Assembly: GCA_012064415.1 (NCBI GenBank)
Contig: SSNU01000064.1
Span: 429,327 to 493,326 of the forward strand
Reading direction: 5' to 3'
DNA length: 64,000 bases
DNA from: Gyrodactylus bullatarudis
Lineage: Eukaryota; Platyhelminthes; Monogenea; Gyrodactylidea; Gyrodactylidae
A model generated the notes under the pieces. It was not told the origin of the DNA. It worked only from the letters and a program-made list of their open reading frames with translations, and did no database searches. Shown here piece after piece: positions 1 through 22,808 of this stretch (within the stretch, counting starts at the first letter, position 1; each line of letters opens with the position of its first letter). A program made the translations under genes and the position numbers.

Positions 1-793
1 AACCAGAGATGACTCTGCATTTGTTAGAAGCAATTCAAGCTTTGTTACCAAGTCGTTCTTTCCAGTGGAATGTAAAAAAGGAGTCATGATATCTGGAAAA
101 TAAATATTTTGATAAAAAATGAAAGGGCATAATTTACAGATGTCAATCAATAATAATTGCAAATCGACTTTCAGTAAAAATATTAACTTATGCACATCGA
201 ATAAATGATAATATAGACTTACACAAAAGCTTTTCAGTATTTGCTCTTATCATAATATCAAGTGAGTAAGCATGATTAGGATTTGCCTCAAACGCAGAAG
301 TAGCAATATCAACGAGAGGTCTGTACAGACGAGGTACCTCAATTCGATAGGTTACAATCGTTTTAAGGAATATTTCAACGTAATAAGGTCTCTTCTGGGG
401 TGGTAAATTTCTAGAATGATTATAAAAAAGTACAATAATTTTAAATATTTACAATTTCGATTCAGAGATTAGCTTATAAACTGAATGTATTATATTGAAG
501 TAATATTTGTCAGTGTCTTGCATGAAAACTGATACGAGACCGAGCCAAACTTGAAGAGAATCGTTCTTTAACTTTAATGCATGATTCAAATGACGAAGGG
601 ACTCATCATAATTTCTCAATTTTTCATGGGAAGCAGACAAAAGAATGAGAAAATTCAAGTTTTTTTCTTCTGAATTATCAACTTTCTAGAAATAATACAT
701 GATAGAACTCACATTCAATACTTCAATGGCTCCTTCATAGTTTTGAGCAGTAAAAAAATTCTTTGCCGACTTGATACAATCTTTTATATTCAT
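1..793 (-). CDS. SKIC3: SKI complex subunit SKIC3/TTC37, N-terminal part (runs off window)
   Basis: Tetratricopeptide scaffold of the cytoplasmic SKI complex, which feeds mRNA to the exosome. Four exons join in frame on the minus strand: 713-793 (ATG at 791-793), 453-685, 223-410 and 1-92, with GT-AG introns of 27, 42 and 130 nt. The N-terminus (MNIKDCIKSAKNFF...) aligns by eye with the start of human TTC37: a lysine-rich helix, then TPR pairs with the motif ...DSLQVWLGLVSVF at about residues 60-75. The 27-nt intron 1 (686-712) contains an in-frame stop, so it must be spliced. The gene continues past base 1. It is head-to-head with PRMT5, 240 bp between start codons. Identification rests on recalled family similarity; another TPR protein is possible but less likely. 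Confidence 0.72.
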
Positions 794-1033
794 AATTTGA
801 ACGTAAAAATCGAAATTTGATAGTATTAATTATTATATTTCAATAAGAAGACGAATTGAAAGAAAATTTAAGTGTTATTGTATTTCAATAAGATGTATCA
901 GATGTAAATTTCTTGAAATATTGGATAGCTAAAACAAAAAATGTTAAATTGATGTGAGAGTTTTAAAAATATTTTTGGCAATTCTTTGTAATTCACGTTT
1001 ATATAACAGTTATTCTATTCAATCTTGTGAATA
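794..1033. promoter_or_regulatory. Shared divergent promoter interval SKIC3 / PRMT5
   Basis: 240 bp separate the two divergent start codons. The interval must hold both 5' UTRs and promoters. I see no clear TATA or initiator motif, only AT-rich sequence, so the call is positional. Confidence 0.5.
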
Positions 1034-4000
1034 ATGGCTAAAAACCTTTGTGGATTACAACTTTCTGATGATAGTCCATTCCCTACAGAATTAGAATTCG
1101 CCTATGAAATGGGGTAATCGATTTTTCACTGACATATTTCTAGATTTTCCTTTGTTGGTAAACATTTATTTCTCCCCAATTCATCTGGAACTATATCTGA
1201 ACTCCCTACTATTAATACTAAGCAAATAATTGGTAAAGATGGTGAATCTTGTTCAAATGCTATTGTTGGACATGTTCCTGATTCGATTGATGTTGATTCC
1301 AGTGTTACTGATGTAAAACAAAAATCAGAGGTGGCTCTTTTACTCAATCTGAGATATGCTGGATATTTATCTTTACCTGCCATAACTTATTGTATCAGAA
1401 GTGGGAATGTTTCCAATTTAGCCAGACTTGTAGTTACCTTCATTGGACAAGAGCACAGTTATAGTAGAGTAAGTTTTTAAATATATCAAATTAAATTATT
1501 TTAACCTAATCTATAAATACAGTTTTGGTTCTTGTTTCCTTTCGGCAATAATACCACTGAAAATCCCCAAAAATCTGATTTATGCTTTAAAAGTATACTT
1601 GACGTCCAAGCTGACCCCAAAGATGTCTGGTCTTGGTGGATTTCTCTATCAGCCCTAACATATGATGTTCATGAGAATATATCTGCTGGTTTAGTTTTGT
1701 GTGAAAATTTGCCCAGTGATCCTCATATCATTGATAATTGGCTGAGTGCACCTGTTGCCTGTCTCTATATACCAACCTGTTTATTTTCAAAGAATTCAAA
1801 AGGATATCCTGTATTATCTAAGGCCCATCAATCTATCATTAAGAGATTTTTCAATCTTAAAGTTCAAGTTGTTCTCACTGGTCCATGTCATGACGAGAGA
1901 GGCTATGTGATTTACAGACAATATATTTATTGGCTCCACAAAAATAGAGAAACTGCCGAGTTATCCCTTGCAGAATACTCAAAAGGCCATGAAGATACTC
2001 TTCAGGAGCAATTACAACCTCTGAAGGATCACCTGAGTTCATCTACTTATGAAATTTTCGAAATGGACCCATACAAGTACAAGGCATATGAGAATGCAAT
2101 TGCCAATGCCTTGGAAGACAGAGCCAATGGCAAGTCACGTGTTCCCGTTCCATCACCCTCTTCAAAAACTTCTAATGGAGAATATAAGCCAACATTTGCA
2201 CCAAATACTCAGGATAAAAGTGAGACTATTCGATTCTATTCTTAAAAGAGTACAGAATTCAACTGGTCAAAATTTTAAATTGATTGAAAATTGATAAAAC
2301 TCATCTTTTCATTAAATTTCTAACATTTGCTATAATTTTTTGTCCAATAACTGAATCAACCATTTCATAGATAATAAATCCCCAAAGAGCAAAGAAGATT
2401 CAGTCATTCCAAAGGAAAAACAAGTAGTAATGGTCTTGGGTGCTGGTCGAGGACCCCTTGTCCAAGCCACTCTGGAAGCCTCCAAGAGAACGAAGGTTCC
2501 TGTCAAAGTTTATGTTGTTGAGAAAAATCCAAGTGCAGTATTAACACTTAAAGTAAGCTCACAGATGCACTCTTGAACGTCGTGCGTACAGTACACATTC
2601 GTGAGATTCTTTTTTTCAAGTTTTCACAAATGTTTTTTTGAATTTTAGGAAAAGGTTCTCAATGAATGGAGTAAAGATGATGTGGTCTTACTTTCTGGCG
2701 ATATGAGAGACCAAAAACCCAATGAAATGGCCGATATATTTGTGAGTGAACTTTTGGGTTCATTTGGAGATAACGAATTGTCACCAGAATGTCTCGACGG
2801 AGCTCAAAATTATCTAAAAGGTGAGTAATATCCTAAGATTTGATAAATTAAATCGTTCGAATATATATAGTTAGTATTTAATTATAATTATGAGAATCCG
2901 GTATAAATTGAAGAAGATAAATGCATATCTGCGATAGTTTCATGTTTTTTTTCAAATTAATGAATCATTTTGGAGTTTAGCTCTTAAAGGGAGGATGGCG
3001 TATAGCAAAATAGAGAAACCCTTCCCTTGTCAGAGATTGTATGTTGATTCGGAAGTATGAGCACTTTTACAGAAAAGAGATGCTGCAGCAGCTATTCTTC
3101 TCACCCTTAAAGTATGCATATTTGTCATTTGTTAAGGGTTTTTAAGGGAACCAAGACACGCGCGGAGAAATCAATCTAATTTGCAAAGAAATACTTGTTT
3201 TAATTTTTGGAATAGAAATTTACTTTTATTTAGGCACACAAAACATTAGAGCATAATCAATTACAATATTTTGATAATCGCCTATAGAATTAAATAAACA
3301 GCATGTACTCAACAACACTATAGATATAGAATCATTCAATATCACAAAGGAATAAAAAAATATTTGCAATTAGTTTTAGTCCCTAGCTGGTTTTAAGGGT
3401 TCTTATTGAAAATTCGAATAATCTTGTTCATAAATTTAGACGATGGAATTAGTATTCCTTGCTCGTATACAAGCTATCTGAGTCCTATACAATCCTCGAA
3501 AATCTTTAATGAAATGAGTAAACAAACGGGAAATATTGGTCTGCGAATTTATAAGCCAAGGGAAACTCCCTATGTTGCCTGCTTAACGAGTGCTAGAAAG
3601 TTGGCAGGACCTCTGAATTGTTTCACATTTGTACATCCAAAGAAGAACCTCAATGAATCCAATGCTCGTCATGTTCAGCTAACATTCCCAATCAAATACG
3701 ATGGCATTTGCCATGGATTCGCAGGCTACTTTCATTCCGTTCTCTATGGTGACATAACAATGAGTAAATTTATTATCTTGAGTATTTCGCTTTAGAAATT
3801 TATTTATTTTTGTTTCATCCAAGGCATTCATCCTCAACATCATAGTCCAGGCATGTTCAGTTGGTTCCCTCTTTACTTTCCCATTGAAAATCCCATTTAT
3901 CTAAAGCGTGGAGATAATCTGACCATTGATCTTTGGCGTGTCATCAACAGGAAAGAAGTCTGGTATGAATGGGCAATTACTTCACCTGTTGTTACCAAAA

Positions 4001-4041
4001 TTCACAATGCTTATGGTAAAGCTTATACAATTGGCATGTAA
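1034..4041 (+). CDS. PRMT5: Protein arginine N-methyltransferase 5
   Basis: Type II arginine methyltransferase that makes symmetric dimethylarginine on histones and Sm proteins. Seven exons join in frame: 1034-1113, 1144-1468, 1523-2219, 2371-2552, 2649-2820, 3440-3763, 3824-4041, giving 665 aa (human 637). The N-terminal TIM-barrel, SAM-binding VLGAGRGP loop (about residues 390-397), the double-E loop [15 protein letters not shown] (Glu462, Glu471) and the C-terminal [10 protein letters not shown] beta-barrel segment are all present. The Phe linked to symmetric dimethylation specificity is kept (YEIFEMDP, Phe314). Introns are 30, 54, 151, 96, 619 and 60 nt; the 30-nt intron carries an in-frame stop. 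An AATAAA lies at 4072-4077, just past the stop. The catalytic residues are intact, so it should be active. Confidence 0.95.
2981..3111 (+). pseudogene. Exon-like segment inside PRMT5 intron 5, one stop codon
   Basis: A segment bounded by an acceptor-like tttag (before 2981) and a donor-like GTATGC (from 3112) reads as protein with one [17 protein letters not shown]... then, after the stop, [14 protein letters not shown]. Codon use looks protein-like compared with the AT-rich intron around it. It is not part of PRMT5, whose exons 5 and 6 join in phase without it. I do not recognise the family. It may be a decayed exon of an inserted gene or a poison exon. Confidence 0.35.
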
Positions 4042-4995
4042 ATTGTACACAACATATTCGATGTTTGATGAAATAAAATTATTTTTTAATATTCAAAAGA
4101 CATTTTCTCATCAATAGCTTTGCTTGACTTTTTGAACACAGATTGGGTTCGTATAGAATAATAAAGAATTTCTCTTTGACCCATACATTTTTGTATATAA
4201 TGGAAAAATTCGGAACTGAAACTCTCTTGTCTAATATGCCTAGTCGTGTCCTTGTTCAGACGATCATTCGATTTTGCAGACAAATTTCTAATTTTTCTAC
4301 CCATTGCAAAACAGTCACTTGGGAATTTATAGATTAGCAGAGTCTTCTCCTCCGGCTAGAGCAAATCAGTATAAATCAAACTAAACAATCTCTTTTTTTA
4401 ATTTAGATTTTAATCTTGATTTTTGAGTTTTGTTCTAATGTCATCACTATTGTATGGAGAACTGATAATTTTTAAGGTAAACCATTTTCCAAAAAAAAAA
4501 ACTTGAATTCTAAATTTCATTCTGCAGTTAACTACTATGAAAGAAAAAGTGTAAAAATAAACATTCGAATCGAAAAATCTTTGGTTAAGAAATGTTTGAA
4601 TGATTATTCCCTCAAGATATAAAAAAATATATTCGAGACAATGTTTCAGCTAAGATTTCAGGAAATTTCCATATATAATAAGTGAGAAATTGATCTTCTA
4701 AGCTGGCCGATTTTGGAAAAATAATTTTAAAATTCATGGACATACTCATGAGTAGAGGGTCGAAAATGTTTTGATGAAATAGTCAAACTTGTATAAAATT
4801 TTTGGGACTTTTACTGTAGATTCGAGTTTATTTTCTTCTCCAACTTTTGGGATGATAAATGCCATTTTAAAGGGACACATACTTTAGAAAAGTATTATTC
4901 TCATGATACAGAAAAATTGGATGCTAAAATATATAAAAAAATCTACTTGGCTCTCATTCTTGTGAAACTATGGCAACAAACCATATTTCTAGGAG
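4042..4995. other. PRMT5 downstream region, decayed repeats
   Basis: No supportable gene. 4140-4290 is a diverged copy of a repeat seen again at about 60890-61020 (listed separately). 4620-4830 contains a decayed stretch resembling the ends of the 4998-6062 foldback, including tactcatgagta. The remainder is AT-rich without recognisable content. Confidence 0.5.
4140..4290. repeat. Diverged interspersed repeat (copy 1)
   Basis: Shares ordered blocks with 60880-61020: ttctcttt(g/c)a..ccatacat, then tttttgtata..a(a/c)gg, cttgtctaa(t/g)atgcctag and gatcattcg/gatcgttcg. The small open frames over it are therefore not genes. The family is unknown. Confidence 0.45.
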
Positions 4996-4997
4996 TA

Positions 4998-6062
4998 CAC
5001 TAAACTTCCTAGAAAATGTATTATCCGAAAAATAATCGATCGAAATATTTCTACCTGATTACTCATGAGTACGACCATTAATTTTCAAAAATATTTTTAG
5101 AACCTCGTGTGTTCTGAAGCGCCAAATAAGGCTTGAACTTCACAATAAAATTATAAAAATTTGTATTTTGGCTAATATCGCTATGCTCTTGCCTCTAAAC
5201 CTTTTTCCATTAATCTAGCTCCATTAATAAGCGAAATATATTTTTTTCGTTCTACATCAATAAAAATAACTCCATCCGATGCAGAATGAAAAGTTGTTTC
5301 ACTTGCCTAAATTTTATGCATCAATATCATAATCGGTGAAAACTAGACGAGTTCAAAGTTGATATGATCGGGATATTTGTTTTCGAATGAAAATCGATAA
5401 AATTCCATTTTTAATCTGACTTTAGTTATGGACCCCCGTTTTTTCTTACCGATGACGTCATATCATGTAAGCTTTGCCATGTTGGGAGACCCCCGTTCTT
5501 ATTCTAATAATGAAGGATGTTGAATAATTATAATGTTGGCAGATCCCTATCCTTACAATAAGAACGGGGGTCTCCCAACATGGCAAAGCTTACATGATAT
5601 GACGTCATCGGTAAGAAAAAACGGGGGTCCATAACTAAAGTCAGATTAAAAATGGAATTTTATCGATTTTCATTCGAAAACAAATATCCCGATCATATCA
5701 ACTTTGAACTCGTCTAGTTTTCACCGATTATGATATTGATGCATAAAATTTAGGCAAGTGAAACAACTTTTCATTCTGCATCGGATGGAGTTATTTTTAT
5801 TGATGTAGAACGAAAAAAATATATTTCGCTTATTAATGGAGCTAGATTAATGGAAAAAGGTTTAGAGGCAAGAGCATAGCGATATTAGCCAAAATACAAA
5901 TTTTTATAATTTTATTGTGAAGTTCAAGCCTTATTTGGCGCTTCAGAACACACGAGGTTCTAAAAATATTTTTGAAAATTAATGGTCGTACTCATGAGTA
6001 ATCAGGTAGAAATATTTCGATCGATTATTTTTCGGATAATACATTTTCTAGGAAGTTTAGTG
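4998..6062. repeat. 1,065-bp foldback element with 506-bp arms and TA target duplication
   Basis: Left arm 4998-5503 and right arm 5557-6062 are reverse complements of equal length (506 bp) with no mismatch noticed by eye, around a 53-bp loop. The ends are CACTAAACTTCC/GGAAGTTTAGTG flanked by TA (4996-4997 and 6063-6064), the target duplication of Tc1/mariner elements. There is no transposase inside. A related, non-palindromic end recurs at 53380. Equal arms imply very recent formation. A transcript through it would form a long RNA hairpin. Confidence 0.9.
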
Positions 6063-6064
6063 TA

Positions 6065-7404
6065 GTTGAATATTCCTCTGTTATTAAAAAGAGGAATCAA
6101 ATTTTATTTAGATAATCAATCCACGATATTCTTGAGACAGATCAGAGATTTTTGTTCAAAAATACAAAAAAACTGTTATTTTTATTAAAACTTTATTTTC
6201 ATCTACAATCAATTTTTAAAATCACGACATTCTATAGAGAACTAATCAAAGAAAAATAAAAAAACTGTCAGTTAATATTCTCCAAACACTCATTGTTGAT
6301 TGATTTGTATAAACAAGAGCAAAATTTGTAATTTTCAACTACTGTACCGTACGCAAAAAATGGACAAGTTCTTCTCTATTATTTTCTGTTAAATTATCGT
6401 ATAGTCAAGTTTTTTTTTCGATTTAGGGTTTGCCATACAAGACGTTATTGATTCTCTGAGCAGATGTATTAAATTGTAGAATCTTTCTGGATTTTTAGTT
6501 GAGAAAACCATTTTGATTGGTTTCCTTCTTCGACAATGAATTAATTCTCAACAATATCGACAATATACAATGTATGTTATACAGCTATTCTCGATGTATT
6601 TGGGAATTTATAATTTTTACAAAAAGGTATCAAAATTTTTCAAAAATCGATGCAAAGACAAGTTAAGGTAATCCAAAAAATTAAAAAATAATGATAAAGA
6701 TCAAGCCTACTCAAAATTTAAAATGTCTTCTAATTTTTTCAAAAAACCATTTATCTGAATCTATTTTTCATAATGTAAGAAATTTTTCGATGCCGGTCTC
6801 TAATACAAAATAACATCGGTTATAAGTAGGGCCTCAAAAATAGTACCAAATAAAATTAAAAATTTTATCTCATGAGCTGAAAATTAAGTAGAGAAAAAGT
6901 ACTTTATAGAAAATTCAAGGTATTTTGAGTAAAAAATAGTATTTTATCGTGAATTCTTGCAAAATTTCTGATTTAAATTTTTTTTCACGATAGAAAACGA
7001 CTGTTCAACTGTTATAGCGCATATATTTTACAAAAAACTCCTTTTAGTTCAGATTTTAAATTCCAAAAGTACTATTTTCTAACATGGTTCAAAGCTTTGA
7101 TCTAGCTACTTACATGAATCTAGCTCATATAAGATTTTGATTCGTTGTTTACTAGTTGAGGAATGCTATATTCTGAGATTTGATTTATAAAAAAGTACAA
7201 AAAAGTACCGTCGAAACAAATAGTACCAGCTATCTTAAAGATAGGATTAGATAAGCAGATTTTTTCTTCAGATTATCAATATCAGCCAGTCCTTTGTCAG
7301 AAAAAGGCAGTTTTATGAATGAAAAAATGCATTTTTTCAGGCAAAATTTTGGGAAAAAGGCAAATAAAAATTTTCGTTTAAATTAAATACATTTTACCGG
7401 TGAA
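6065..7404. other. AT-rich intergenic DNA, nothing recognised
   Basis: Both strands lack a credible open frame, RNA gene or clear repeat terminus. It shares loose similarity with other AT-rich non-coding stretches. Confidence 0.5.
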
Positions 7405-7690
7405 GTATTGCAATTTGCACGGTATGGATACGAACTAGTTCAATTTTTCAATTCACTAATATCGTTCTCTGGCCTTAACCCCCTCTGGGTCCGGAGATTT
7501 GCTTTTTTAGTCAAAAAATTCACAGACTCTTATTCTCCCTCTAATGATAATAACTATTCCTTGACAAATAATAAATATAACCCTAACTATTTACTTTCTA
7601 TTTATAACTTTATCTATACTAAATATGAATTATCTGATTGTGATGACTTGACCAATCTTAAATTGGTCATAATAAACGGATGTATGGACA
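7405..7690 (+). mobile_element. LINE fragment: C-terminal end of reverse transcriptase ORF
   Basis: Translation shows FNSLISFSGLNPLWVRR and, further on, LSDCDDLTNLK. Both match the end of the LINE reading frame at 47160-47360 (SISGLDPLWLRR ... LSDCDNLYDLK) and the fragment at 11500-11620. This is the thumb/C-terminal region of a CR1/jockey-like LINE polyprotein, truncated on both sides and without a function of its own. Confidence 0.7.
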
Positions 7691-7699
7691 AAAAAGGCA

Positions 7700-8884
7700 A
7701 AAATGGACATTTTATTGCCCTAGTCATAAGCCTATTTCACTCTTTTCACAGAAAAGTTCTCTGGCCCCTTGAAAAAAAGACAGCGTAATAAATACTTTTC
7801 ATGGGTGATTGATTTTGATTCTTGAAGCAATTAAATTTTAAAACGATTGCAATAGGAAAGAAAATAGTCTTTAATTGAAAGACATTTATTAACTGAAAAA
7901 AATTTTGGATTCGGTATGACATCTCTAGTTCAATGGGGGCTGCGGCCTCTGGAAAAAAAGTCAAATTTCAATCTCTTGAGCAGTTTTTCGGAATTCTTTT
8001 ATTCCCAGAATCAAAATTTCTCATACAATAATAAAACAAATTCATGAGGGTAAACTAAATCACACAATGAGAGCAAAGTGAGTCAAAAAAAGACACTGTG
8101 AGAATATGTGAAATTGGATCCAAGAAATTCATTCACGATGAAAAGTCCCTTTCACAAAGGGTGAAAGACAAAACTTTAAAATCCAATTACTTACTCGACA
8201 AATTGGATTGAGTTATGATGGTAATCTTATACCCAGATTTCATTTGTAGAACTTAAATTCAAATATACATTTACTTGAAAGTAGTTATATGAAATATATT
8301 TATAAGATATACAGTAGTTTATATTATTAATACAATTTATTATTAACAACCATATGATGATAATGATGACGATATAATGTTCAAATTATTAAACACTAAT
8401 CAAACACTTGGTAAAGATACTATCACTAAACTTTGAAATGTTAAATGAAATGAAAATGGGTTTCGACTAAGTTATTATGGTTGCCTAATCTATTCGAATA
8501 TATATGTATTCACCAGAGTATTAGAAAACTTTGCCAAGGTTTCAGTGATATCATGATATGCAAGACTTTTGGTAGTGATCTCTTTGGTTGACATGAATAC
8601 TGTCTTATGACGGAATATTTGCGTATTCCTCTCACTGTCAGAGCTGTATTTTAGGAATGATTTTACAAGTTACTAAGGAACTCGAGAATGAAAAAGTATT
8701 TTTGACCTTTGAACTGAAAATTATGTCTATTTCAAATTCTCAAGGATCAAAAGTAGTCAATCGAACTAAATATGGTCATCAATGAGATTTGAGAATCTCC
8801 GCTTTGTTGCCTGAATCTTCTTGAATAATTACAATGTTTTTAGACAATAAACCAACTAGATAAGTGTGGTAACTAGTAAATACT
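7700..8884. other. Intergenic DNA, nothing recognised
   Basis: No open frame with protein-like composition and no recognisable repeat boundaries. Confidence 0.4.
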
Positions 8885-9338
8885 AGGCTAGGGTGAAATT
8901 TTTAACCTCATATCAGGACCAACTTTTCTGATAGAACTATCAATTCTAAGCATTATTTTGTATTGAAGCATGTGTCGAAAATGATTCTCCATTATAATGG
9001 ACACACTTATGTCATTCAGTTTTAAAAATCCAAAATTTCTTAAAACGCCGCTCAATTTTCAATGAATTTTTACTACGCAATCACTAAAATCCAGAATATC
9101 TTGACCATTTGATGAGTTTCTTAATTTTTATCTTCAAAAATAGTAATCTTGTTATCAAAAGGGGCTTTCGTTATTTTGTCATACCCATGGGAGATTGTGG
9201 GAAAAATGGGCAACGACACAATGAAGAATGACTGTCACGCCTTAAATATAAGCAAAACATGATCTGAGTACTAAAATTTATCAGAAAAGTAAGTCCTCCC
9301 GTGAGTTGTTCAGAGAAAAAAAAATTTCACCCTAGCCT
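8885..9338. repeat. MITE-like element with ~19-bp perfect terminal inverted repeats
   Basis: Left end AGGCTAGGGTGAAATTTTT (8885-8903) is the reverse complement of the right end (9320-9338). Subterminal blocks also pair: GGACCAACTTTTCTGATA near the left and its near-complement near 9280-9298. It is about 454 bp and has no coding capacity. I could not fix the target duplication. Confidence 0.65.
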
Positions 9339-9910: not shown

Positions 9911-12900
9911 CTACTGTATGTAAAATCAAAAAATTACTCACAAGTCCTCGATGAATACAGACTGGGAAGGATTTAAGAGGATATTCATGACTTTTTGATA
10001 ACATTTTCTTGGCTAACACATCAAATTCAAGGGTAATGTGAGATATTTTTATTGAAACGTCGAATTTTAACTCTGCAACAATATTCGATTTTTTCGTGGG
10101 ACTACGTTTCCTTTCTGTTAGGCAACTCCTTGTTGATAATAGGTCTAATTCGTCTTTATCTGCATACCAGCCAAAGATCAGTGGTTGCCAAGAAGCTAAA
10201 AACTATCAAGAAGAAAGGAATTCTAGGAATTAAAAAAAAACCTGTGCAAATTCCAATAGCTATTCTTACATTTGAATTTTTATTCTCATCCATTGGTTTA
10301 CAGGCAAGGGGCTTAATTTCATTAAGAAAATCATCTGAAAATACATATTGTCTACACGTGGGTATAGGTGTTAGTAACATTTTTGGATTATCTAATTTGA
10401 TCAAAACCCTATAATTTTTCGTATCGTAATCTGTCAGCATTTTATTGGGATTCTGTTGATATTTGGAGAGAAAATCCTCTAGAATAGTTTCTCTGGCCTC
10501 TCTTGATATCATCAACTTTACCAGGAAACCGAGACTTCTATCACTTATCTTAATAATCTCCATATCAAGATTGAACATGCATAATTCCTGTATGGAGAGT
10601 AGGACTTCTCGACCAAATGGCATTTTTATAAAACATTTCTCAGCCTGATCTCCGAGGGATACCTTGAGAGGTTGAGTTAAACTTAGCTTCTCATCTGAAT
10701 ACGCAATACAAGCTCGGTTATCTCTCATGTTCAACCAGGATATACTTGGATCAAGTTTATCATCGTTAGTATCGTGATAGATCAGGTTGATTTCGATATC
10801 TTGTTTCTTTGTTATTGGCATAGCTAATTCATTGATTTTGTATTTCAAGTTCAAACTTCGTTTACTGTTAAGGGCAACAAGAACCTTTTGATCTGTCTCG
10901 AAGAGTACTAGATGAAAGAATATATGAATAAAACATAATTTTGAACCAAATGGTTCTTCAGGGAGCTTTTCAGCATAGATTGACTATAACGTTGTCATTC
11001 GTCTATCTGTACAAAAGAGGGTTATAATAACACACTGTCTTGAAAAATTTTAGCGTTGAGTATTCGAGAAGTATTCGAATTTATGTTTTATCGAATTTTA
11101 GTCTCTAAAATGTTTATGATATTAGCTCGCATTATAATTCTAAAAGGATAGAAATGATCTGCAAACAATTCTCTACAACCCCTTGCCTCAAACTTTTGAG
11201 CTACCTTTTCTTGTTAAGAAGCCATGCTTGATAGTATCACTCAATTTTTAAAAATTTGAAATCTCTTTTTGAATCTATTAGAGCTGGCGTAGGGAATTTT
11301 TCTTAATTTTCCTTGAAATGTGTAAAAATGGCTGAAATTGATGAATCTGCTGTGAAAATTAGAGAAAAACCAAAAACGGTGAAAAGTTCGGCGTTTTTAA
11401 AATTTTATTTTTTAAGATATGAATGAATTTTATAACTGCTAGCTGATCAAAGGGAAAAATCATAATCACTATAACTATCAACTATCCTTATTTTTTATCA
11501 ATTGGAGTCATTTTTTGAATTTCTCAGATAATAATCATCAGAGAATAAGGCTCCGAGAAATTTTTGACTAAAAAAACATCTCCGGACCCAGAGAGGGTTA
11601 AGACCTGAGACCGAGATTAGTGCATTATACGTGTCGATATGAGGAAATAGAGAATGTAAAAGCCTATATTGAACACGTTCAATAGTTAGGCACTGAGATT
11701 GATTTAAATTAGGTAAAAGAGGGAAAATATAGTCAAAAAGTGGAAAACCAATGATTTGTAAGCTTTTAGTCTTGCATCACTGGATTTAGATAATTTCTTA
11801 ATTGTATGAATAATGTTAATAATTCTAGGGAGATTTGGAAAGTGGATTTAATTTTAAACTAGACGATATACTGAAACCTAGGTCAGAAGTTAAGGAGACA
11901 ATTTCTCCAGAAAGTAGAAGCGATTCTATGAGGATTCCAGGGAGACCGGATGGGAGCATTATTTTGGATTTATCTCTATTAATATAGAGCCCCATCGTCT
12001 CAAGGGAATCTTTAAGAAGCAAGAAGTTATGATTTATTTTAATAATGTCTAATGCAATATTTATTTTGAAGATGAATTTTAGATCATTGTTATATTTTAA
12101 AAGGACACCCTCCTGATAGACCGATACAAGCGAGAAGACAACATAGTCAGGTAGCAAGAGAACAACATCATAGTCAATAAATTCACATTTTTACTTACAT
12201 TTTTCATCATTGGTACATATAATTCCAGGGAGGAGGAAATTGAGCAAATCTGGATCTGCCCAAGATTCACGATCAAGCACTAAATTGAGGTCGAGGGATT
12301 TAAGGAATATTATCAAAGGATGAGCAGGTCTCAGGCTTTGCTCTTCCTTCTCAAGGTAAATGTTTATTTGAATATTCTCAGGTAGATAGAACCCGAATTT
12401 CTGTAAAAATGAAAAAGTAATTGCTGAAAATCCTGACGAGCTTCTTCAAAAATATTTATTTGATTTTCCATTGAATTATTACGAGGATTAGACGACAAGT
12501 GGAAATTTAGTTCTAAGGCCAGATCTCGCCAGACTCTTACACCTGCTTTATATTCATACCTAAAAACAAAAAAGATTTAAAATCTTCCCTCCATTCAAAT
12601 AAACCCCATTTTAGTTTTGAACCTATCAGATGTATTTAATCTATTTTGTTTTAAGGAATGAATATCAAGCTGGTGTAAGAGCCTAAAGAGATCCGGTGAA
12701 CTAGAAGCTTTAAAAGTAAATTTCCACTTGTCTTCTAATCCTCATAATAATTCAATAGAAAAAGAAATTGTTTAACTAGAGGTTTAATCGATCAGTTCTA
12801 TTCAAGCTTGGGTGATTTCACTTGAATACATGTGAAAAAGAAAACATAAGCTTGTAGGTGTGAGACAATTAAAATTTACAATCTGCTCAAAATCTCTCAA

Positions 12901-15900
12901 TGTGAAAGTAAACTCTATTAGAAGCTATTGGAAAACTAACTATAAGACAAGAATCATCAAGATCTCAAAGATTTCTAGAAAAACCAATTCAAAAGGCACA
13001 CGTGCAAATTGGAGACATTAAAAATTTTGAGGTGGTGCGGTTTTTTAATATTTTTACACTTTGAGTTGACAATTTTTGTTGATTTCAAAGTGTGAGAAGG
13101 ATCATCATTAAACAAGGAAAACAAAAATGGTCCTTGATGTTTTAGAAAACACCCCATTATCGTGCAAAAGTCTACATCACATTTTCAGACCATTTTTACT
13201 GCTTGAAAATTGATTAATAAGGATTAGGGAGAGTCAAATTTTTTTATTTTTTCGAACAATGTTTCGGCTGCAATATATATTTCTAGTTAAACTTTGTAAG
13301 TATAGGTGCTGCACTATTCATTAGTTAGCAAAACCCTACGGTTACGCCACAGTATAAAGAAGTAATTGGAGTTGCATGGGATGTTGGACGAGTGGATTGA
13401 GCATTGGTCTACATTGCGAGAGGTCCGAGATTGTAGCATACTGATGAGTCCAGAAAAAGGAGTCATGTCTACCATATTAAATTATTTCTAAATGCTTTGT
13501 AAGTTTCTTTCGTACCAGTCTCGGTGGGATCCATTAGTAAGCTGTAACATTCAGCGACATGGGCTAGTCCATTACCAAATAAGACGTTCCTGTGGGATAT
13601 ACGACCTAAGCACCTTTCAAACCTATTTATATATATTTAAAATTGCATTCAAACGGCTCAAAATTTAGATTCTAACCGATTGTAGTAGATAAATTCTTGA
13701 AAATAGTTGGCGCTAATTCAAAAATCGGTATTTTAAATTGCGATTTGGGATATCCAAGCAAAATTTTAAATATATGGTTTAATAGGAACGTTTTTACGTT
13801 GAAAAATTCTCATTAAAATGAGCAATGCACATCTGGTGTTTGCCTATCTCTCTATTAAGGATGATACAAGATGAGTTTAAATTGAATATTATTAATTGGT
13901 TTCTTGTACTTTCGATTCTTTTAACACCTTGAAATCGAAAAAAATTACATTAGCTACTACTTATAAAATATTAATTTTGAACCAAGTAGTTCTTCAGGGA
14001 GCTGTTCGGCATAGATTGTCTATAAATATAGAAATATTGTGTGAGTCCTAACTGTTTTTATCAGGGTAATCTAAATGTTTTTTATTCTAATCTTTATTTT
14101 AATTTTCCTTCAAGTGATGAATTATATTATCAGAGTTATTACTCTAATAATTCTGATTATTGTAACAATCACTATAATTTTAAAAAACTTTGCTCTTTAA
14201 GAAATACTACACCCTTTTCTCCTCTTTCTAAAGACAGACCAATACAAACCAGAAGACAACATAGTCAGGCAGCAAGCGAAAAACGTTATAGACAACTTAT
14301 AAAATAGCTGATAGCTGTAAAATTTTTTGATATTAATGCGATTATGATCAAGGTTAGGATTTACAACATCAATCGTTCTAGAAAATCTGGAAGAAGATGC
14401 CAGAATTTCGTACCATATAGAAGAACATATTTTCAGCTTGTAGAGTTCTTGATAAGACGAAGCTTTGCAAATGTTGGAATCGAGGTAAACTTAGATCAGC
14501 TCAGTCAGTTCAAATTAAAGTTTTTATTTACCTTTTCAACATGACCATTAGATAGCAATAACCAAACACATTCTTGCGGCTAATATAAAGAATACTTTTG
14601 AATCCTTGGAAAAAAGATCCATTAAAATTATCGCAGAGGTATTGGAAGTAAGCTCAAATGTTTAATGTATTTACAATATTTTCTATAGAGTATTGCTTTT
14701 AAGAATGCTGAAGGAGAAAAATAGAATTCTTGATAAGGTCTGGGTCCGTAAAACAATCAGAAAATGGATAGTTTATAGAGCCTGAAAGACACGAATAGAA
14801 CCTTTCATATTCAGGTGTCATTAAAAAAAGTACTCACATCTGCAAGGAGAATTATCTGATTGTTTCCTGGATTGATGGTGAGGCGACCCTTTGGTAGGTC
14901 ATTGTTTAATGTCTTGAAGAGACATTTATCAATTGAATAATTCTCCAAATTTTCTGGATAACTCTCCTTTGAGAGCTCTTTCGCAATCATCAGGGAGTCT
15001 TCTATAGAATTTAAGAGTAAAATTTATAAAAATTCCTCATTACACCTTTGAGAGAGAATAAATATTTTTAAAGTTTAAACAAGACATCAGAAACAACATC
15101 AATATAAAGTGGTTCATAATAGAATGAAGAATCAATATTTCAGTTCATACTTGTCAAATTTATTATTATTTTATAGCTTATCACCTCTTGATTTTGAGAT
15201 CCAAATATGCAATTAACCCTTTCGGTGCCGAGACTATTTCACAATTTTTATAAAAACCAAGATTTAGCTATGAAGATACCAAGTTATTTGGGCTTCAATT
15301 TAAACTTTAATTGATCCAGAAACCTATCAAACTGGTAGAGTTATGAAGGTTCAAAAAAATTGGAAAATGGACATAAATGTCCATTGGCACCGAAAGGGTT
15401 AAATGTATTCTTTGTAACTGATTTTTAATATCATTATAATTAGTTAGTTGTGCAAACGTTGAGAGCATAATAAGTAAAAAAGGATGCCGAAAGTGTGGGG
15501 AATAAGCGCTTACACGGGTAATACTGCAGTTAGAGATCATGTGAAGTTCTTTGACAAAAAATCTTCCCCTTCAAACTTTTACATTCTTTATAGACAAAAC
15601 GGAAGAAATGTCAACGCCTTAAAGACTGCTGAAGCCTTTTTTTATTAAAAGAGAAAATCCAATTCTTTGCAAACAAAAGAAACTGGTTAAACCTTTAGGA
15701 CTTACTTGGCCAAATACGATCAGTAGAAACAGAGAATTACAAACAAACAGTCAACCAGTAGAAACAAGGAAGAGAAATAGAAAATGGGATATTGTACAAA
15801 CAATAATAAAATCACAAAATACTTCAGTTCAAACCAATAATCAAAAGAAATTAGTCCAGAATCAATTTATATTTATTATTTGAAATAATTTAATTCCTTT

Positions 15901-18900
15901 TTTGAAAAACCTTTTCACAAAGTGTATGATAATGAACTCATTTATCTGTAATCATGAATATATGCATATTTTGTACTATATCATAGATGAATACCTTTTA
16001 TGTAACATTTATATTCCAATGGTACTCTCACCCTAGGGTGGGAATACCAATTAACATACATAACATCCAGAAAACAATTGAAGATGTGATAATATACAGA
16101 TTACCCCGCCCCCTAAACACCTGAAGAGAGCCAATCAGATCAAGTTTAATTTTTCTTTGTATTTTGTATTTATCTGGCATGTAAGAGGCTGATGAGTATG
16201 CCTGAAATAAAGCGCTTATTCCTCACACTTTCGGCATTCTTTTTTACTTAAATTTATTCTATTCGGGTTTTAGAATCCTGGCTAAAATATGCCTTTAAAG
16301 AATTTTTGTGGTCCCGATAATTGTTATAGCAAAAATCTTGAAATTTGTCTCATCCTCTTCACGGTTATTTTAATTAAAAATTGAAAAAAATACTTGTTTT
16401 TTATATCTTTTGCATGTTCTTGGTCAAACTGACAAGAACTCAAATAGAACGTAGCGTAATTGAAACAGGGGTATATGTTAAGCATTTGTTACTTTTTAAA
16501 CCATGTTAGTTTTTTTATCTTAGTTAGTATAATAAGGAATTCAAGTTTTGAGATAAAAACAAGAAATGAAATAAATAAATGTAGCCTTGAACATCCTTGG
16601 AGTACATTTGATTTGTCAAAGCCAGTTCAAGATTATAACTTACCATAGGATGCTTAATAAAGGATCAGAATGAGAAATGTACTTTTAAATGAAAGAGCTA
16701 AATGAAAATTATTAAATCAAAGTAGACCCTCGACTATGTTTGTCGGTCATTTTTCAAATAAACAACACTCAAGTTGTCTTATTTTCTCAAATGTAGGATT
16801 TATTATTTAGTTGAATCAGTAAACTTTTTTAAGATTGGAACTCACTGAGAGGGCTGAGGTAAGCCAATGAACTCGAATGGTCTATCTGAAGATTCGATGG
16901 ACATTTATTTTCCGACATTGAGTTGGCCCGTTTTATTCCAGTTCGAATCTTGATGAAAAATTTATCTTTTACAATATTCCTATATAATTTCTCTATCAGA
17001 AACAAATTTAAATTTAATTTCGATACCCAGAAACTAATGAATTAATAAGCATCTGTAAAGATCAGAGTCTTGAAAATAGTATACCAAATATTAAGCTGAT
17101 TGATATGAAGTTTTTATTGATTTGAAAGTGGGAAAGTGATCAAAAATTGATTTTCAGGATCAAGATTAGATAAAACTGAATAGCACCGTCAAATTATCGA
17201 ATTCTTTATGAAAAATCGAGATTTCTGTAAAAATCATAGATTCCCAACTTTATGTTACAGAGAATCTGGAAATTCCATATAAATGTGAAATTATTGAATG
17301 CGAGCCATGAAAAACAATTCTCTGGGACTTTAAGGGTTAATCGATGTACATGTGGAAAAAGATACGTACGACATCGGTAAAGTTGATTCGTTCTCTAAAC
17401 GTCATTTCATTATTTTTCAAGGCTCTGGATTCACTGTCACTTTTTTTAGCTGACTTTGGGAATAATCTTGTCGAATCACTGGAATTGTAACTATTGGGAG
17501 ATTTGATTTTTTGAACAAAACTAGAAATCTTTGCACTCAGGTTGTTAAACCTCTCCTCTGTATTCAGACCAGTTGACTGGAGATTACCATCATCATTGTA
17601 TTCATCTTCAGAGGAATTCAGATCAATGCTACACAAATCCTTGAGATCATTTGATCTTGATTGAATCCTTTCGATGAATTCATCTCTTGTGTTTTGTTCG
17701 TATTCCCCATCCAAGTAACTTTGTGACCAGTCATGATTGTTTGGCGAACGACCGACTATTGTTAGGCTTAAGGGATTAAATTATTAAGATATTTGGTAGG
17801 AGCAAACTGCTTTCTGAAAATTAAAAGACTCAAGATATTAGTGTAATTAGTTTGTCCTGAAGAAGATTTAACTATCACTGGTTGAAATTTCATTAAAATC
17901 GGTTGGGTAGTTTAGGCGTCTATAGGCTCACAAAATCGACTTTTGTTTATTAATTATATAGATTATGATAAATTTGAATTACCTAACATTGACTGGAAAC
18001 TGGAGATTAGACTTGATATCCAAGAGGATCATTTGTCTATTGAAGATTTTTTTGGGTAGATCTTTACAAATAGCATCATTACGTGATAACAATTTGATCG
18101 TTTCTATATGATAAACTGGAGATATAGACTTTATCATGAATGGGGCATTTATTTCGGCCATTTTCAAGGCTTCATTCCACCAGAAATCTGATTTAACAAC
18201 GGAAGCTTTGTCGAATGTCTTAAAAATAGTTGAAATAATCTCCTCTGAATCATTTGTATCCATGGAGTTGTAAACTGTAGATAAAATTGAAAACGATCGA
18301 CAGCATAACAGTAAAGCAGTTCTCAGATATCTTGACAATGTATGAAAATATTTATTACTTTGGTACGCTAATGTACTTTTTTTGCATTGTATCTTTTTAA
18401 AATTTATTCGATAAGAGCTCATACTTATAGAGGGGATTCTTGAGATTTTGAATTTGTTTTGGTATCTTTTTTAATTTCAGTAATCTTTAACAGAAATATC
18501 TCAAGAATTGAGCTTTTATTCCAGGGTAACTTACCGCTTGTTTGAATCCTCCATTAGAAACCGACACTCGGCTAATTTCAAGTATACAGCTGTTGTCAAA
18601 ATGTCCCAGCTATCATCCAACAAAGTTGATAAAACATTTTCATATTGAAATTCAGCGGCCTTGAAGTCTCCACATTGACTAATTATTTGAGTTATAAGTT
18701 AATAAGAATAAATTCATAATTTTGAACCAGAAAAATTAAAATAAATGAGTTATTACTAAAATTATACTCAATTCGAAAAAGAGAAGTTTCCCTCTTCTTG
18801 GAAAAATATTTTTAATGAGAAAAACTCACTGCTTAAACTCAGCAAAAGTGCAGATCATTTGAGCAGCTTCTCGGTTCCTCTTCATTCCTTTGAGAAATCC

Positions 18901-21900
18901 AATAGAAAGAGTGATGATCTCATCGAATAAAACTTTGTAATCTCTTTCAGATTCCAGGGCAGTCTTGAGACTGGCAATTACTTTGGAGAAAATCTCGCTA
19001 GTCTTTAGGCATTTGATGATTTTATCAAAACTTTTGCTACACTCCTTTGTGACAATTTTCACTCCCTTATACCTTGGCCATAAGCAGAGATTAATGCCCA
19101 ACTTTTTCAAAGAATCAACTGCCTGCAACCATAATAGGAGAGCGTATCTTTGAATTTCCAGTCTTTTTTTAAAAGAAAATTCATCTAAAATTTTGAGTAT
19201 TATTCAAAAGTATTAACCTTCATCTTGACAAGGATCTGGAACAAGAATGACCAGTTTAGATAAATCGCAGAATACGCTATCGGACTTGACACTGATCTTG
19301 TCTTGAAGGAAAAATTTCAATTTAGTAAAATAGAAATCAAAAATTTTCTAAAATCTCTATCGTTTGTATAGGCCGGGAATCAGGAAATAATTTTCCATCA
19401 GTTCATCTTGTAAGATGGATTTTTTCACAGTCTTCAAAAAATGAGTATATATTTGAGTGTATTACTCTATAAAACTTGTCTAGTATAAAGCAGACAGGCA
19501 TTATTTATCAATATTCTGGGAGTAAAATACAATAAAAACTAGTTAAGTACTTAATGCTTTTAAACTTTATTTTGTTTCAATCTTCTCTTTAAATTTATTA
19601 CAAAGTATCCAAGGAAAACGATCACTACAAAGATTTTCTTTAATTTAAAAACTTATTTTAGTGACTAGAGAATGAAGTAGATGAATTAACAAAAATCTTG
19701 AATTCTTCAGTAGTCGCACTAACCATTTCAAGCCCGAATAAAATAAAAAGTGCGCAAAAATTGAGTTATCAAAGATAATAAATTGAACAAGGAAAGGGGG
19801 GACTGTGTTCATGATTGTTAGCATGTTTTTTTCTTCATTCCATGTATAAGCCCCCCTCCCCTTCTGGATGGTATATTGGGTGTATTATGGTGTAAATTAA
19901 AACCTTGATATCTTCCTTAGAAAAAATCGTAGAAAAAAAATGAGAACAGATTTAGAATCAGCATGGAATTTCTGATCAGCACATACTAAATTTTATCATA
20001 TTAAACAAATGCATAACAAAATTATTATAAAATGCTCAAATTTTTGAGCTTTGACGCTGATTTTTTACTCAAAAAAATCTGTTAACCATACTCTGATAAA
20101 ACTATTTAGAAAGAAGAGTTATTTAGCTACATTTTGGTGTATCATATGACACATATATGTCTTTTATACCGCCACCAGATCACTGAGATTAAAAAAACTC
20201 GGATCAAAACTTCAGATCCAATTTTTGTCGAGATTCCCAAATCAATCGAAAAACGGTTTATACCATTGAATTCAGCGCATCAGAATCTATAAGATATCAA
20301 AAAATCAAAATAATACAAAAAATTCACCTCAAATTTGTCGAACAGTGTAATAAATAGACTAAGACGATTCCAAGAAAGCTTGGGGAAAAATAAAAAGGGG
20401 CAATTCTTTAATTTAACCACAAAATGTAATCGTTATCAAACTCAAGGCTAATTAGAACTTGATTCGAAATCTCCAAAGACATGCAAGAGATATTAAAGAT
20501 AATTGATTGAAATTACCAGAATTTGATTCATCTCCATCCACATCGTCGCATTCGTTGATGACTGATTCTTCTGATAAGTCAGCATTGTTCAGTCGATCTT
20601 CAATCTCGTCGGAAAAGTCAAGACCATTTGATAGACGTCTCGGATAATCGGGTATTTTGTTTACAATGTAGCTCATACGATGAATATATTTTTCTCCAAC
20701 CTGTAATTAATTATAATTTTTGACTCATTTTATTGGATTTTTTCTATTCTTTTAGATACTTAGAATTTATCTTTTTGAGCTATAAGTAGTTATCATTTTG
20801 TTTTTCAAAATCATTTTGGTTTCAAGGTTTAATAAATTTTGAATGGTTTTTCAGATTTGGACTAATAGGAATACAAAGGTTTGTGGATAAAATTGAAGAG
20901 AGTTCAGAGTACAAGCGCGTCTCATCCCACTAAAGAATGTATTTGACTATCTCAGTTACGAAACTTCAGGAAGAAACTTTGGAAAAAGATTGGTTATACA
21001 ATTCTAAACAATTAATTTAAAATTTTTTTCTTCAAAAATAAAATTCACAATGAATTACTACATCCTGAGAGCTATTACTTATTCTCTTAGTCAGAAAACA
21101 TTCACTAACATTTGTAAAATTTGTTTCATCTCCTTCGTCCATCGATTTTCCCATGCCGAGGAAAGATCTCCGGTAGAACCTCAGGGCCTCTAGGATTTGC
21201 ATGGAAACGAGGAATACCCAGCAGAAGAATAATCTCTCATCAACTTTGATCTGGAAATAAATTTTTTTAATTGACAGTTGACATGTAGTTTAGGTTTTTA
21301 AAGAATTTCCATTAGACTTTTTATTAGAGTATCGTGAAATCTTACACATCAAAAAAATGTTTACAAACGATCAATGACAAATCATGTCAATGTAGTATCG
21401 TGATAAGTTGAGATTGCACAATCTTACTTGTAGATTAATCATCATTTATAAGAAGAACACACAAAAATGGAGAAAATATAAAAACTCACCTTGAGTAGTT
21501 TCACGTGCATAATAGCAAAGTGGACAGAATCCCATCCGAAGGAAAGAATTTGTGTTTGATCAAATAGAACACAGTCTGTATCTTCGGTAAAGTCTCCAAA
21601 TGAGTGTTCATCGTCAAAGTGTTTCTTTTGGATCCATATTGCTCGTATAATTTTTGATGCAAAGTATGAATATAAATCCAATAAATTGCCTTCATTGTTG
21701 AATATCCTAATGGATTTTCGATGAAATACATCATGCGAAGAGTAGTCGAGATTAGGCGGAAATATTATCAGGGAAGGTTCCAAGATATTCTCCGTGTTCA
21801 TTGTCAACTCATTCAACCAAACGGGAATTTTATCTGAATAATCAAGAGATTTTATCAATGCATGTATTTTATTTACTATGATGTATTGACCAGTTGAGCA

Positions 21901-22808
21901 GTTAGAAGAGAGTTTCTTCAGAAAACTAACCTTTACTTTGTAAAATGGACTGGATTGATTCATAGACAATTTTTAAAAATTCTGAATAAACTCGTTTAGT
22001 TTCGTCATAAATTGTAAAAGCAGATAGGAGCTCAGCAAATTCTTCAGCAAGAAGTAGGAAATCTTTAAAATCAAAATGAGGATCAGTTATGTTCTCTGAA
22101 AGAGTTTTAAAATCTTGATTGTACCCCTCAATCATGCGAGTGAAGGTTTCAATAATTGAACTTCGAACTCGAATCAATAAAGAATTCCATTTTTCGTTAA
22201 CAGTTGATGAATCGTTACTGTTTGGATCAGGTAATTCGATTATATATCTGATAATTTTTATTAAATAAGTGAAGCTGACCTATCGGATTTTAGTTTACAA
22301 TCTGATTTAATTCGATCAATTACAGACTTTTTCATGTTGAATTTTGGAAATTTGGAATACTCATTGCAAATGATTATAATTAAAAATTCTCTATTCTTGT
22401 CTTTGGCCAAGGTTTCCAACCAAGTTTTCAATAATGGTTTGGCTATTTGATAATGATCCAGGTTCTTTACAAAAAAATCAATTAAATTATTTAATTTACA
22501 TCATCTATAATGAAGGCTGAAAGGAAAACATTCTGTGCTGATCTATCAAGTGAATATCCAGTATACTCATTGGATAAATTTCTCCATGAGATGTCCTTAA
22601 AATTAGAAATTCTGAATTGATCTTTCTCAATAGGAATGTTGATAGGATATGATTTCTTATTCAGGGTATTATACCAAGTTACACGTTGAAGTTTCAAGTT
22701 CTTCAGGCAGTATTTATCAAATTTGTTTACCGTTTCATCATTTCCACCCACTTTTATTTAAAAAAATGATATATTACCACTAATGAAAATAGGAGAATTC
22801 AGCTGCAT
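9911..22808 (-). CDS. TRAPPC10: TRAPP II complex subunit TRAPPC10 (Trs130-like), ~20 exons
   Basis: Subunit of the TRAPP II tether and Rab exchange factor at the Golgi. Exons (minus): 22778-22808, 22500-22750, 22280-22464, 21931-22247, 21490-21833, 21110-21250, 20517-20700, 19218-19301, 18830-19118, 18535-18678, 17983-18330, 17370-17766, 16846-16948, 14838-15001, 14365-14489, 12199-12400, 10270-10907, 9942-10202, with a stop after a 28-nt intron near 9911. About 1,400 aa (human 1,259). Family landmarks: KWNSLLIRVR...SFTRM-type segment (exon 4), LLDLYSYFASKI (exon 5), FFCWVFLVSMQILEAL (exon 6), CGDFKAAEFQYENVL (exon 10), LYKLKICSSIWYE (exon 15). Introns of 27, 35, 32 and 28 nt occur. The join of exons 14 and 15 is one base out of phase in my model, and an exon near 12422-12561 is uncertain, so the C-terminal third needs transcript support. 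Confidence 0.85.
10938..11000. repeat. Short duplicated segment (partner 13974-14030)
   Basis: ttttgaacca...ggttcttcagggagc and cagcatagattg recur in direct orientation at 13974-14030. Both copies lie in TRAPPC10 introns. The family is unknown; it may be a LINE 3' tail. Confidence 0.5.
11500..12165 (-). mobile_element. Decayed LINE reverse-transcriptase fragment
   Basis: It lies in the same orientation as the host gene, in a TRAPPC10 intron. It reads LLKYNNDLKFIF, the palm YADD box with both key positions altered (YNND), then LETMGLYINRDKSKI and, near 11560-11620, SVSGLNPLWVRR. These match the LINE pieces at 47340-47900 and 7405-7690 in order. The polymerase is inactive by loss of the catalytic Asp and by truncation. 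Confidence 0.65.
12655..12766 (+). pseudogene. Inverted, decayed copy of the TRAPPC10 segment at 12440-12560
   Basis: The plus strand reads tgaatatcaagctggtgtaa... then aatttccacttgtcttctaa. On the minus strand 12560-12470 reads tgaatataaagcaggtgtaa... and aatttccacttgtcgtctaa. The two copies are roughly 80% alike by eye, about 100 bp apart and head-to-head. The copy has stops, so it is a local inverted duplication and not an exon. Confidence 0.6.
13376..13620 (+). mobile_element. tRNA-derived SINE-like element (family A)
   Basis: A pol III-like A box (TGGACGAGTGG, 13385-13395) and a weak B box (GGTCCGAGATTG, 13422-13433) lie 26 bp apart, followed by a non-tRNA body ending in ctgtgggatatacgacctaa near 13610. 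The same tail recurs at 33885-33935. A CTGATGAGTCC motif follows the B box (see findings). No intact tRNA cloverleaf is present. Confidence 0.5.
15217..15398. mobile_element. 182-bp piggyBac-type MITE
   Basis: Perfect 13-bp terminal inverted repeats (CCCTTTCGGTGCC ... GGCACCGAAAGGG) are flanked on both sides by TTAA (15213-15216 and 15399-15402), the signature target site of piggyBac transposases. It is non-coding and must be mobilised in trans. Confidence 0.85.
15471..16252 (+). mobile_element. Penelope-like element 3' fragment (end of GIY-YIG endonuclease) with inverted termini
   Basis: The plus strand reads NFYILYRQNGRNVNALKTAE then AFFIKRENPILCKQ, like the end of the GIY-YIG nuclease of Penelope-like elements (...E-x-x-x-I-x-x-x-P). 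The first 40 bp (15471-15510) are the reverse complement of 16211-16250 with two mismatches. The right end holds a hammerhead-like core (16189-16228). It is strongly truncated, since the reverse transcriptase is missing, and it sits in a TRAPPC10 intron. Confidence 0.65.
16181..16228 (+). ncRNA. Hammerhead-ribozyme-like motif at Penelope terminus (copy 1)
   Basis: CTGATGA (16189-16195) is followed by an 8-nt spacer, GAAA (16204-16207), a self-complementary stem III (TAAAGC/GCTTA), TT, then CCTC, which pairs with GAGG just before CTGATGA (stem I). The order equals that of a hammerhead open on stem I. Stem II is not formed in the usual way. A second copy at 28848-28890 keeps the layout with covarying stems. 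Catalysis is not shown. Confidence 0.5.

Follow-up and report, generated by a model that had tools for sequence, protein, structure and literature searches.

Introns of 22–35 nt in genes of a gyrodactylid flatworm, a new case of the very short introns described for other flatworms

Very short introns are described for several flatworms. In Opisthorchis felineus intron lengths were reported to peak at 37 and 90 nt, and introns shorter than 75 nt, which make up about one-third of those annotated, are commoner towards the 5′-end (PMC6530080); in tapeworms the peaks lie at ∼36 and 73 nt, a two-peak pattern that is also ascribed to Gyrodactylus salaris (PMC5036155). Published averages for such ‘micro-introns’ differ between flatworm species (PMC6530080). 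Introns of still smaller size were reported in dicyemids (mean 26.2 nt, n = 16, PMC2222250; genome-wide median 27 bp, PMC6543705) and in protists: 15 nt in Stentor (PMC9505925, PMC12316389), ∼25 nt in Paramecium (PMC5014332) and 23 nt in Trichomonas (PMC12316389). Here we consider micro-introns of 22–35 nt in a stretch of 64 000 nt of genomic DNA (the window; GC content ∼31%), which is part of contig C424 of a genome of 77.3 Mb in 471 contigs, and in other genes of the same genome; positions are those of the window unless said otherwise.

The sequence of COX1 places the animal among the gyrodactylids (Monogenea, Neodermata): this gene lies on the mitochondrial contig C13, TGA is read through 12 times in it, and its product under the flatworm code is closest to a Gyrodactylus albolacustris cluster (89% identity), the next-best matches being to Macrogyrodactylus, Cichlidarus and Paragyrodactylus (83–84%) and then to other flatworms; among the 120 of 7996 matches listed, all those with names come from flatworms. 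The 36 micro-introns collected from its genome (22–35 nt, mean 29.1 nt, standard deviation 2.7; 11 are multiples of three) are very probably ordinary U2-type GT–AG introns belonging to the flatworm micro-intron class, with a centre at ∼29 nt, that would be removed whole and in which the distance from donor to branch point would be compressed. Since very short introns of flatworms and dicyemids are already published, this is a well-supported new case, at the short end, of a known oddity and not a new kind of intron; a micro-intron peak length stated for a gyrodactylid was not found in the literature searched and may be in print.

Introns were predicted with a simple gene finder that uses a three-periodic coding model, favours hardly any intron length over another above a minimum of 15 nt, and requires GT and AG at the intron ends; it was applied to 199 kb of C424, the window included. 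A search for chaperonin (CCT) genes gave 14 matches in nine genes, and the six loci with split or stop-crossing matches were fetched; all 14 proteasome genes that were found were fetched as well. Throughout, the evidence is genomic DNA, from which lengths, frames, protein matches, splice-site make-up, the two length modes and the 5′ bias in two gene families are read directly; splicing itself, the branch positions and the factors involved are inferred. Few genes were sampled, and part of the set was admitted on coding potential. The names SKIC3, ACSS3, DCTN1 and TAF10 and several of the proteasome and kinesin names follow a preliminary description of the window or are putative; the family was checked wherever a protein match is given below.

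The preliminary description listed seven short introns with coordinates and claimed that those checked hold stops or shift the frame, with flanking protein that matches known families. All seven start with GT, end with AG and have exactly the lengths given there; six do hold a stop or shift the frame, with homology through the join in three and stops plus coding flanks in three others. The former three are in TRAPPC10, on the reverse strand: 27 nt at the first join (22751–22777, in-frame stop if retained), 35 nt (22465–22499) and 32 nt (22248–22279, with the unusual donor GTCAGC), the last two shifting the frame if retained. The match of the spliced TRAPPC10 protein to Pfam TRAPPC10_1st (PF23036), 98.1 bits, spans the 35-nt and 32-nt joins; when the exon on the far side of the 27-nt intron is included, the score goes up to 103.3 bits and the match begins at profile position 5 instead of 15. 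Pfam was used here in place of PDB, where a search with TRAPPC10 gave a single weak match, seemingly unrelated. The gene finder predicts one more micro-intron in the TRAPPC10 region that was absent from the preliminary description (33 nt, 19185–19217, reverse strand). The seventh listed intron, 28 nt in TRAPPC10 at 9914–9941 (reverse strand), could not be upheld; one frame stays open over 22 codons without splicing, coding beyond it is unsupported, and the intron was therefore dropped.

Stops and coding flanks mark a 27-nt intron of a tetratricopeptide repeat (TPR) protein, SKIC3 (686–712, reverse strand; GTGAGT..TTTCTAG, in-frame TAG if retained), the spliced product of which has weak TPR matches, with the join outside every protein alignment made; a 30-nt intron of PRMT5 (1114–1143, forward strand), with two in-frame stops if retained and a join at residue 27, the PDB alignment beginning at residue 50 and the Pfam match at residue 61; and a 30-nt intron towards the 3′-end of the gene for an acyl-CoA synthetase of the ACSS3 type (37935–37964, forward strand; in-frame TGA if retained), where Pfam AMP-binding_C ends at residue 628, ahead of the join at 645. 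PRMT5 also has two introns of a second short class on the forward strand, 54 nt (1469–1522; gene model, with a PDB alignment that spans the join) and 60 nt (3764–3823; gapless PDB alignment over the join). As proposed earlier for this DNA, micro-introns coexist with kilobase introns: in the ACSS3 gene model the 30-nt intron stands alongside introns of 1160, 2790 and 4035 nt (the last at 28133–32167, forward strand).

The 22-nt intron suggested for IDI1 is supported at 41877–41898 (forward strand). It shifts the frame, and the product with 22 nt removed is gapless at the join against human IDI1 (2icj) with a score of 106.9 bits and a one-residue gap ∼9 residues past the join; the only other frame-keeping GT..AG choice found, 52 nt, gives 94.1 bits and a nine-residue gap, a difference of 12.8 bits in favour of 22 nt. 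A possible 24-nt intron of TAF10 (42587–42610, forward strand) is a candidate from reading of the sequence only; it and 9914–9941 were excluded from the set.

Homology passes through the join in 22 of the 36 micro-introns, and the claim of very short introns over unrelated genes is supported. Solved homologues are gapless at nine joins: IDI1 (22 nt), CCT3 (23 nt), CDC37 (28 nt) and WBP4 (27 nt), the last two located in the C424 stretch, as well as CCT4 (29 and 33 nt), CCT6 (31 and 30 nt) and PSMB1 (29 nt). The alignment of CCT3 to the solved subunit starts five residues ahead of the join; at a 31-nt intron of WBP4 the alignment to the solved homologue is weaker. NCBIfam or Pfam matches span 12 further joins: those of CCT1 (29 nt), CCT2 (28 nt) and CCT8 (32 nt), with near end-to-end NCBIfam equivalog matches in a single stretch, those of PSMA7 (31 nt), PSMA6 (30 nt), PSMB6 (29 and 32 nt) and PSMB5 (26 nt), the three of TRAPPC10 described above (27, 35 and 32 nt) and one in a kinesin gene (31 nt).

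Several calls of the gene finder were revised or discarded. Calls of 20 nt in PSMB1 and PSMA1 were corrected to 29 nt (131.9 versus 127.7 bits; gapless join against 6epc) and to 68 nt (161.3 versus 156.8 bits), respectively, and a ‘42-nt intron’ of PSMA6 turned out to be coding sequence (155 versus 132.7 bits); these miscalls were noticed against human sequences and then scored. ‘50-nt’ introns of CCT8 and CCT4 became 32 and 29 nt after retraining of the splice-site model, and protein alignments agree. We dropped predicted introns of 275 nt in L044, which seems to fuse another gene, and of 125 nt in L045, with a C-terminus without homology, along with a 16-nt call (row ‘big-’), calls of 26 and 49 nt antisense to CCT1 (L025-) and terminal calls of 20 and 34 nt in L030.

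Decoy runs, made on C424 sequences and on the CCT and kinesin loci with the coding model trained on GT..AG models, compared GT..AG ends with ten decoy pairs. Up to 35 nt there were 11 introns with GT..AG against 1–5 (mean 3.1) with decoys, and at 51–80 nt 19 against a mean of 9.7; at 36–50 nt the figures were 2 and 4.6. A run in which only the dinucleotides were demanded already gave introns of 26–31 nt, several with GTAAG-like donors that it had not demanded. In the final set, donors are GTRA in 30 of 36 and acceptors YAG in 28 and AAG in 8; T content in the nine bases before NAG is 54%, much as in longer introns (56% and 58%). Signals of the U2 type are present beyond the required GT and AG.

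The preliminary description had also suggested that the spliceosome can do with next to no spacing between branch point and acceptor, with U2/SF3b proteins to be inspected for changes. The suggested lack of spacing is not supported. Candidate branch adenosines (45 in all) lie at a median of 12 nt before the intron end, and in 28 of 36 introns the one selected (that nearest to 12 nt if there were several) is 7–16 nt away from that end, with about 9–21 nt left between donor and branch point; the micro-introns appear to have room for normal branch-to-acceptor spacing, weak as the evidence for the motif is. Three U2 small nuclear RNA loci were above the cut-off, and the branch-recognition stretch GUGUAGUA is intact in two. 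In the third (L007, 1501–1688) the 5′-end and the branch-recognition stretch are degenerate and the 3′-half is better preserved; it is either a variant or a pseudogene. The window itself holds PHF5A, an SF3b subunit of ordinary sequence (first coding exon 40158–40400, forward strand), which is full length (Pfam PHF5 1–104 of 104; the complete protein scores 165.3 bits), and SF3B1, SF1-HH and RED_N domains are present in the genome as domain matches. No change of U2/SF3b was seen in the two intact U2 loci and PHF5A, with SF3B1, SF1 and RED checked as domain matches and not in depth; at this depth nothing in the sequences points to a rebuilt spliceosome. An Rfam scan (gathering threshold) and a tRNA scan of the window gave no matches.

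Most likely the standard spliceosome would remove the micro-introns whole; these have a GTRA-like donor, a T-rich interior and a YAG or AAG end and, in most of them, a candidate branch adenosine ∼12 nt before the end; the compressed part would be donor-to-branch (about 9–21 nt) and not branch-to-acceptor. In human, a donor-to-branch distance of ∼50 nt was reported to be necessary, the minimum for the B complex being estimated at 52 nt, and Smu1/RED to become indispensable once donor and branch point lie close together (PMC6692369); SPF45 takes the place of U2AF on truncated pyrimidine tracts (PMC8363638). Both are candidate aids in the worm, and RED is present. The human introns that depend on these factors present the same physical difficulty as the micro-introns, either a short distance from donor to branch point or a truncated tract (PMC6692369, PMC8363638); however, as described there they are at least 56 nt long, and the donor-to-branch distance of the sensitive ones peaks at 50–70 nt, compared with about 9–21 nt here.

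The introns examined fall into two short modes, 22–35 nt and 51–75 nt, besides the kilobase introns. Before the proteasome genes were read, we predicted for any further introns a length of 22–35 nt or at least 50 nt. Nine of the 14 genes have introns, four have none in the stretch read, and L044 is in neither group; after the three gene-finder corrections, and with the two longer predicted introns dropped, nine of the 12 accepted introns are 26–32 nt long and the others 55, 62 and 68 nt, with none at 36–50 nt. Together with the six CCT genes there are 31 introns: 18 up to 35 nt, none at 36–50 nt, 11 at 51–75 nt and 2 above. Given a log-uniform spread of the 29 introns up to 75 nt, the chance of the empty zone is ∼7 × 10−5; for the 12 proteasome introns alone it is ∼0.02 (calculated by hand). 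The gap is not absolute, since the kinesin gene with the 31-nt intron also has one of 42 nt: the Pfam score is 359.5 bits if this is retained and 379.5 bits if it is removed. The run that demanded dinucleotides only gave introns of 37 nt (85526–85562) and 46 nt (10196–10241) as well; the splice-site models would place these at 31 nt (in WBP4) and 67 nt (10203–10269). Another predicted kinesin gene (L029, 4374–6879) has nine consecutive introns of 53–72 nt and no micro-intron among them; the length classes may be sorted by gene. Consecutive introns of 56, 73 and 59 nt occur in another predicted gene, on C424 (window-relative 82826–84893, reverse strand), the product of which has acidic (D/E) runs of great length.

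In the CCT and proteasome genes, micro-introns are biased to the 5′-end: 15 of 18 lie within the N-terminal 20% of the protein versus 2 of 13 longer introns (one-sided Mann–Whitney P = 0.0006, with positions entered by hand). Three chaperonin-type genes, on contigs C404, C468 and C443 (G000), give near whole-domain matches without a stop; in their six intron-bearing relatives the micro-introns are all near the 5′-end.

In having long introns beside two short classes, one of them very short, this genome resembles those of other flatworms; among those reported to have two peaks is the closely related G. salaris (PMC5036155). The 5′ clustering is as reported for O. felineus (PMC6530080); the shortest class of Taenia was reported to tend towards the 3′-end (PMC5036155). 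The peaks differ, being ∼29 and roughly 51–75 nt here and 37/90 or ∼36/73 nt in the published accounts; no peak near 36–37 nt was found, the maximum of the set being 35 nt. We treat the shorter peak as probable variation between species and not as a defining limit of the class. Micro-introns of O. felineus were described as having splice sites nearer to consensus (PMC6530080), and donors here are no stronger than those of longer introns. Dicyemids have introns of the same size in an animal; there, by the published accounts, short introns are the norm, whereas here they are one class beside the 51–75-nt and kilobase classes, and introns above 200 nt outnumber every other length group in our gene models. 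The ciliates and other protists share GT–AG introns shorter than 35 nt, and in Stentor the branch-binding motif of U2 is also reported to be unchanged (PMC9505925); these lineages are unrelated, and the introns of Stentor, as described, are near uniform, with the branch adenosine mostly at a fixed position.

A number of observations tell against our interpretation or limit its reach. That all 36 introns are GT–AG is true by construction, since the gene finder required these ends, and the six CCT loci were picked for split or stop-crossing matches, a choice that favours short introns. Fourteen of the 36 micro-introns are without homology through the join, and the case for them is made by stops, a shifted reading frame or coding potential: those of SKIC3 (26 and 27 nt), PRMT5, ACSS3, DCTN1, TRAPPC10 (33 nt), WBP4 (28 and 32 nt), an RNA recognition motif (RRM) gene (31 nt), CCT2 (29 nt), kinesin (27 nt), PSMA4, PSMB7 and PSMA3. 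Compared with longer introns, the splice sites are no nearer to consensus (donors GTRAGT in 10 of 36 versus 8 of 26 and 24 of 72). A YTNAY-type adenosine 7–25 nt before the end is present in 28 of 36, compared with 24.6 ± 2.7 in shuffled sequences, a weak excess by which branch positions stay inferred; the 22-nt intron of IDI1 has no such motif by eye. Genome-wide, AGGTRAGT followed by 8–38 bases and TTTYAG gave 138 matches versus 284 in a reversed control, and GTAAGT followed by 13–19 bases and TTYAG gave 790 versus 2080, no excess in either case; among the 89 distinct matches to the first pattern (100 of 138 listed) 28 fall at 24–30 nt where ∼20 are expected from the 35–50 bins, a mild rise only. 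Such pattern counts decide nothing and yield no genome-wide number of micro-introns. On the DNA evidence the shortest introns of the genome are below the minimum of about 40 nt that the preliminary description named as contrary to such a class.

One could ask whether these are introns at all. Errors of assembly or base calling, or coding insertions mistaken for introns, can mislead in single cases, as the wrong 20-nt calls of PSMB1 and PSMA1 and the 42-nt call of PSMA6 demonstrate, and the donor of the IDI1 intron adjoins a run of A; nevertheless the cases are many, their lengths keep to a narrow range, consensus-like donors appeared with only GT and AG demanded, protein matches are gapless at joins and decoy pairs gave far fewer introns, so that this explanation is highly improbable. 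Removal by a route free of the spliceosome, such as a tRNA-type ligase pathway, or bypass by translational frame change has small size in its favour and nothing else; as donor and acceptor make-up past GT and AG resembles that of longer introns, we give it hardly any credence. An altered U2/SF3b that tolerates almost no branch-to-acceptor spacing would suit introns whose total length leaves scant room, and by eye the 22-nt intron of IDI1 has no YTNAY motif. Against it stand the candidate adenosines at 7–16 nt in 28 of 36 introns, the two U2 loci with an intact branch-recognition sequence and the ordinary PHF5A, and we consider it improbable.

A more serious competitor, possible though doubtful, is that there are two discrete geometries, the usual cross-intron assembly for introns of at least 51 nt and a compact or cross-exon mode for those up to 35 nt, with 36–50 nt nearly forbidden. 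The empty zone among the 31 CCT and proteasome introns, the deficit of GT..AG introns relative to decoys in that zone, the estimate of ∼52 nt from donor to branch point for the human B complex (PMC6692369) and the two peaks reported in other flatworms (PMC5036155, PMC6530080) are in line with it; yet the 42-nt kinesin intron is well supported, the 37-nt and 46-nt introns were displaced by the splice-site models alone, few gene families were sampled, the zone was drawn post hoc, and selection on length could yield two modes without two machines. Somewhat less probable again is the proposal that length is quantised (22–35 or at least 51 nt, with the zone between nearly empty) because introns with a donor-to-branch distance of ∼10–20 nt are built, with otherwise ordinary U2, SF3b and RED, in a second, compact spliceosome geometry that the human B-complex estimate of about 52 nt minimum would not permit. 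Removal of the micro-introns by the standard spliceosome as ordinary U2-type introns is by far the best account of the data.

If so, an animal with kilobase introns and ordinary-looking U2 appears to remove introns of 22–33 nt, shorter than the ∼50 nt needed between donor and branch point in human, and gyrodactylids could offer a practical system for the study of spliceosome assembly with donor and branch point 10–20 nt apart. On the practical side, genes of this kind would come out broken or truncated from any gene finder or aligner whose minimum intron length is set higher. Assemblies of G. kobayashii, G. bullatarudis and G. salaris are reported to have BUSCO values near 56–63% (PMC12677651); a link of these values to micro-introns would be a guess.

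Some other features of the DNA were seen in passing. A perfect inverted repeat at 4996–6064 has two 512-nt arms, 100% complementary, with 45 nt between them; a mobile element is one possible explanation, an artefact of assembly another. A long reading frame at 50608–51630 (reverse strand) was named Tc1/mariner-like transposase by its appearance; a second copy on C424 (window-relative 76197–77134) is identical in the part shown. Two TAF10-like reading frames are adjacent, at 42611–44494 and 44978–45379; the second is predicted as a single exon, as if it were a retrocopy.

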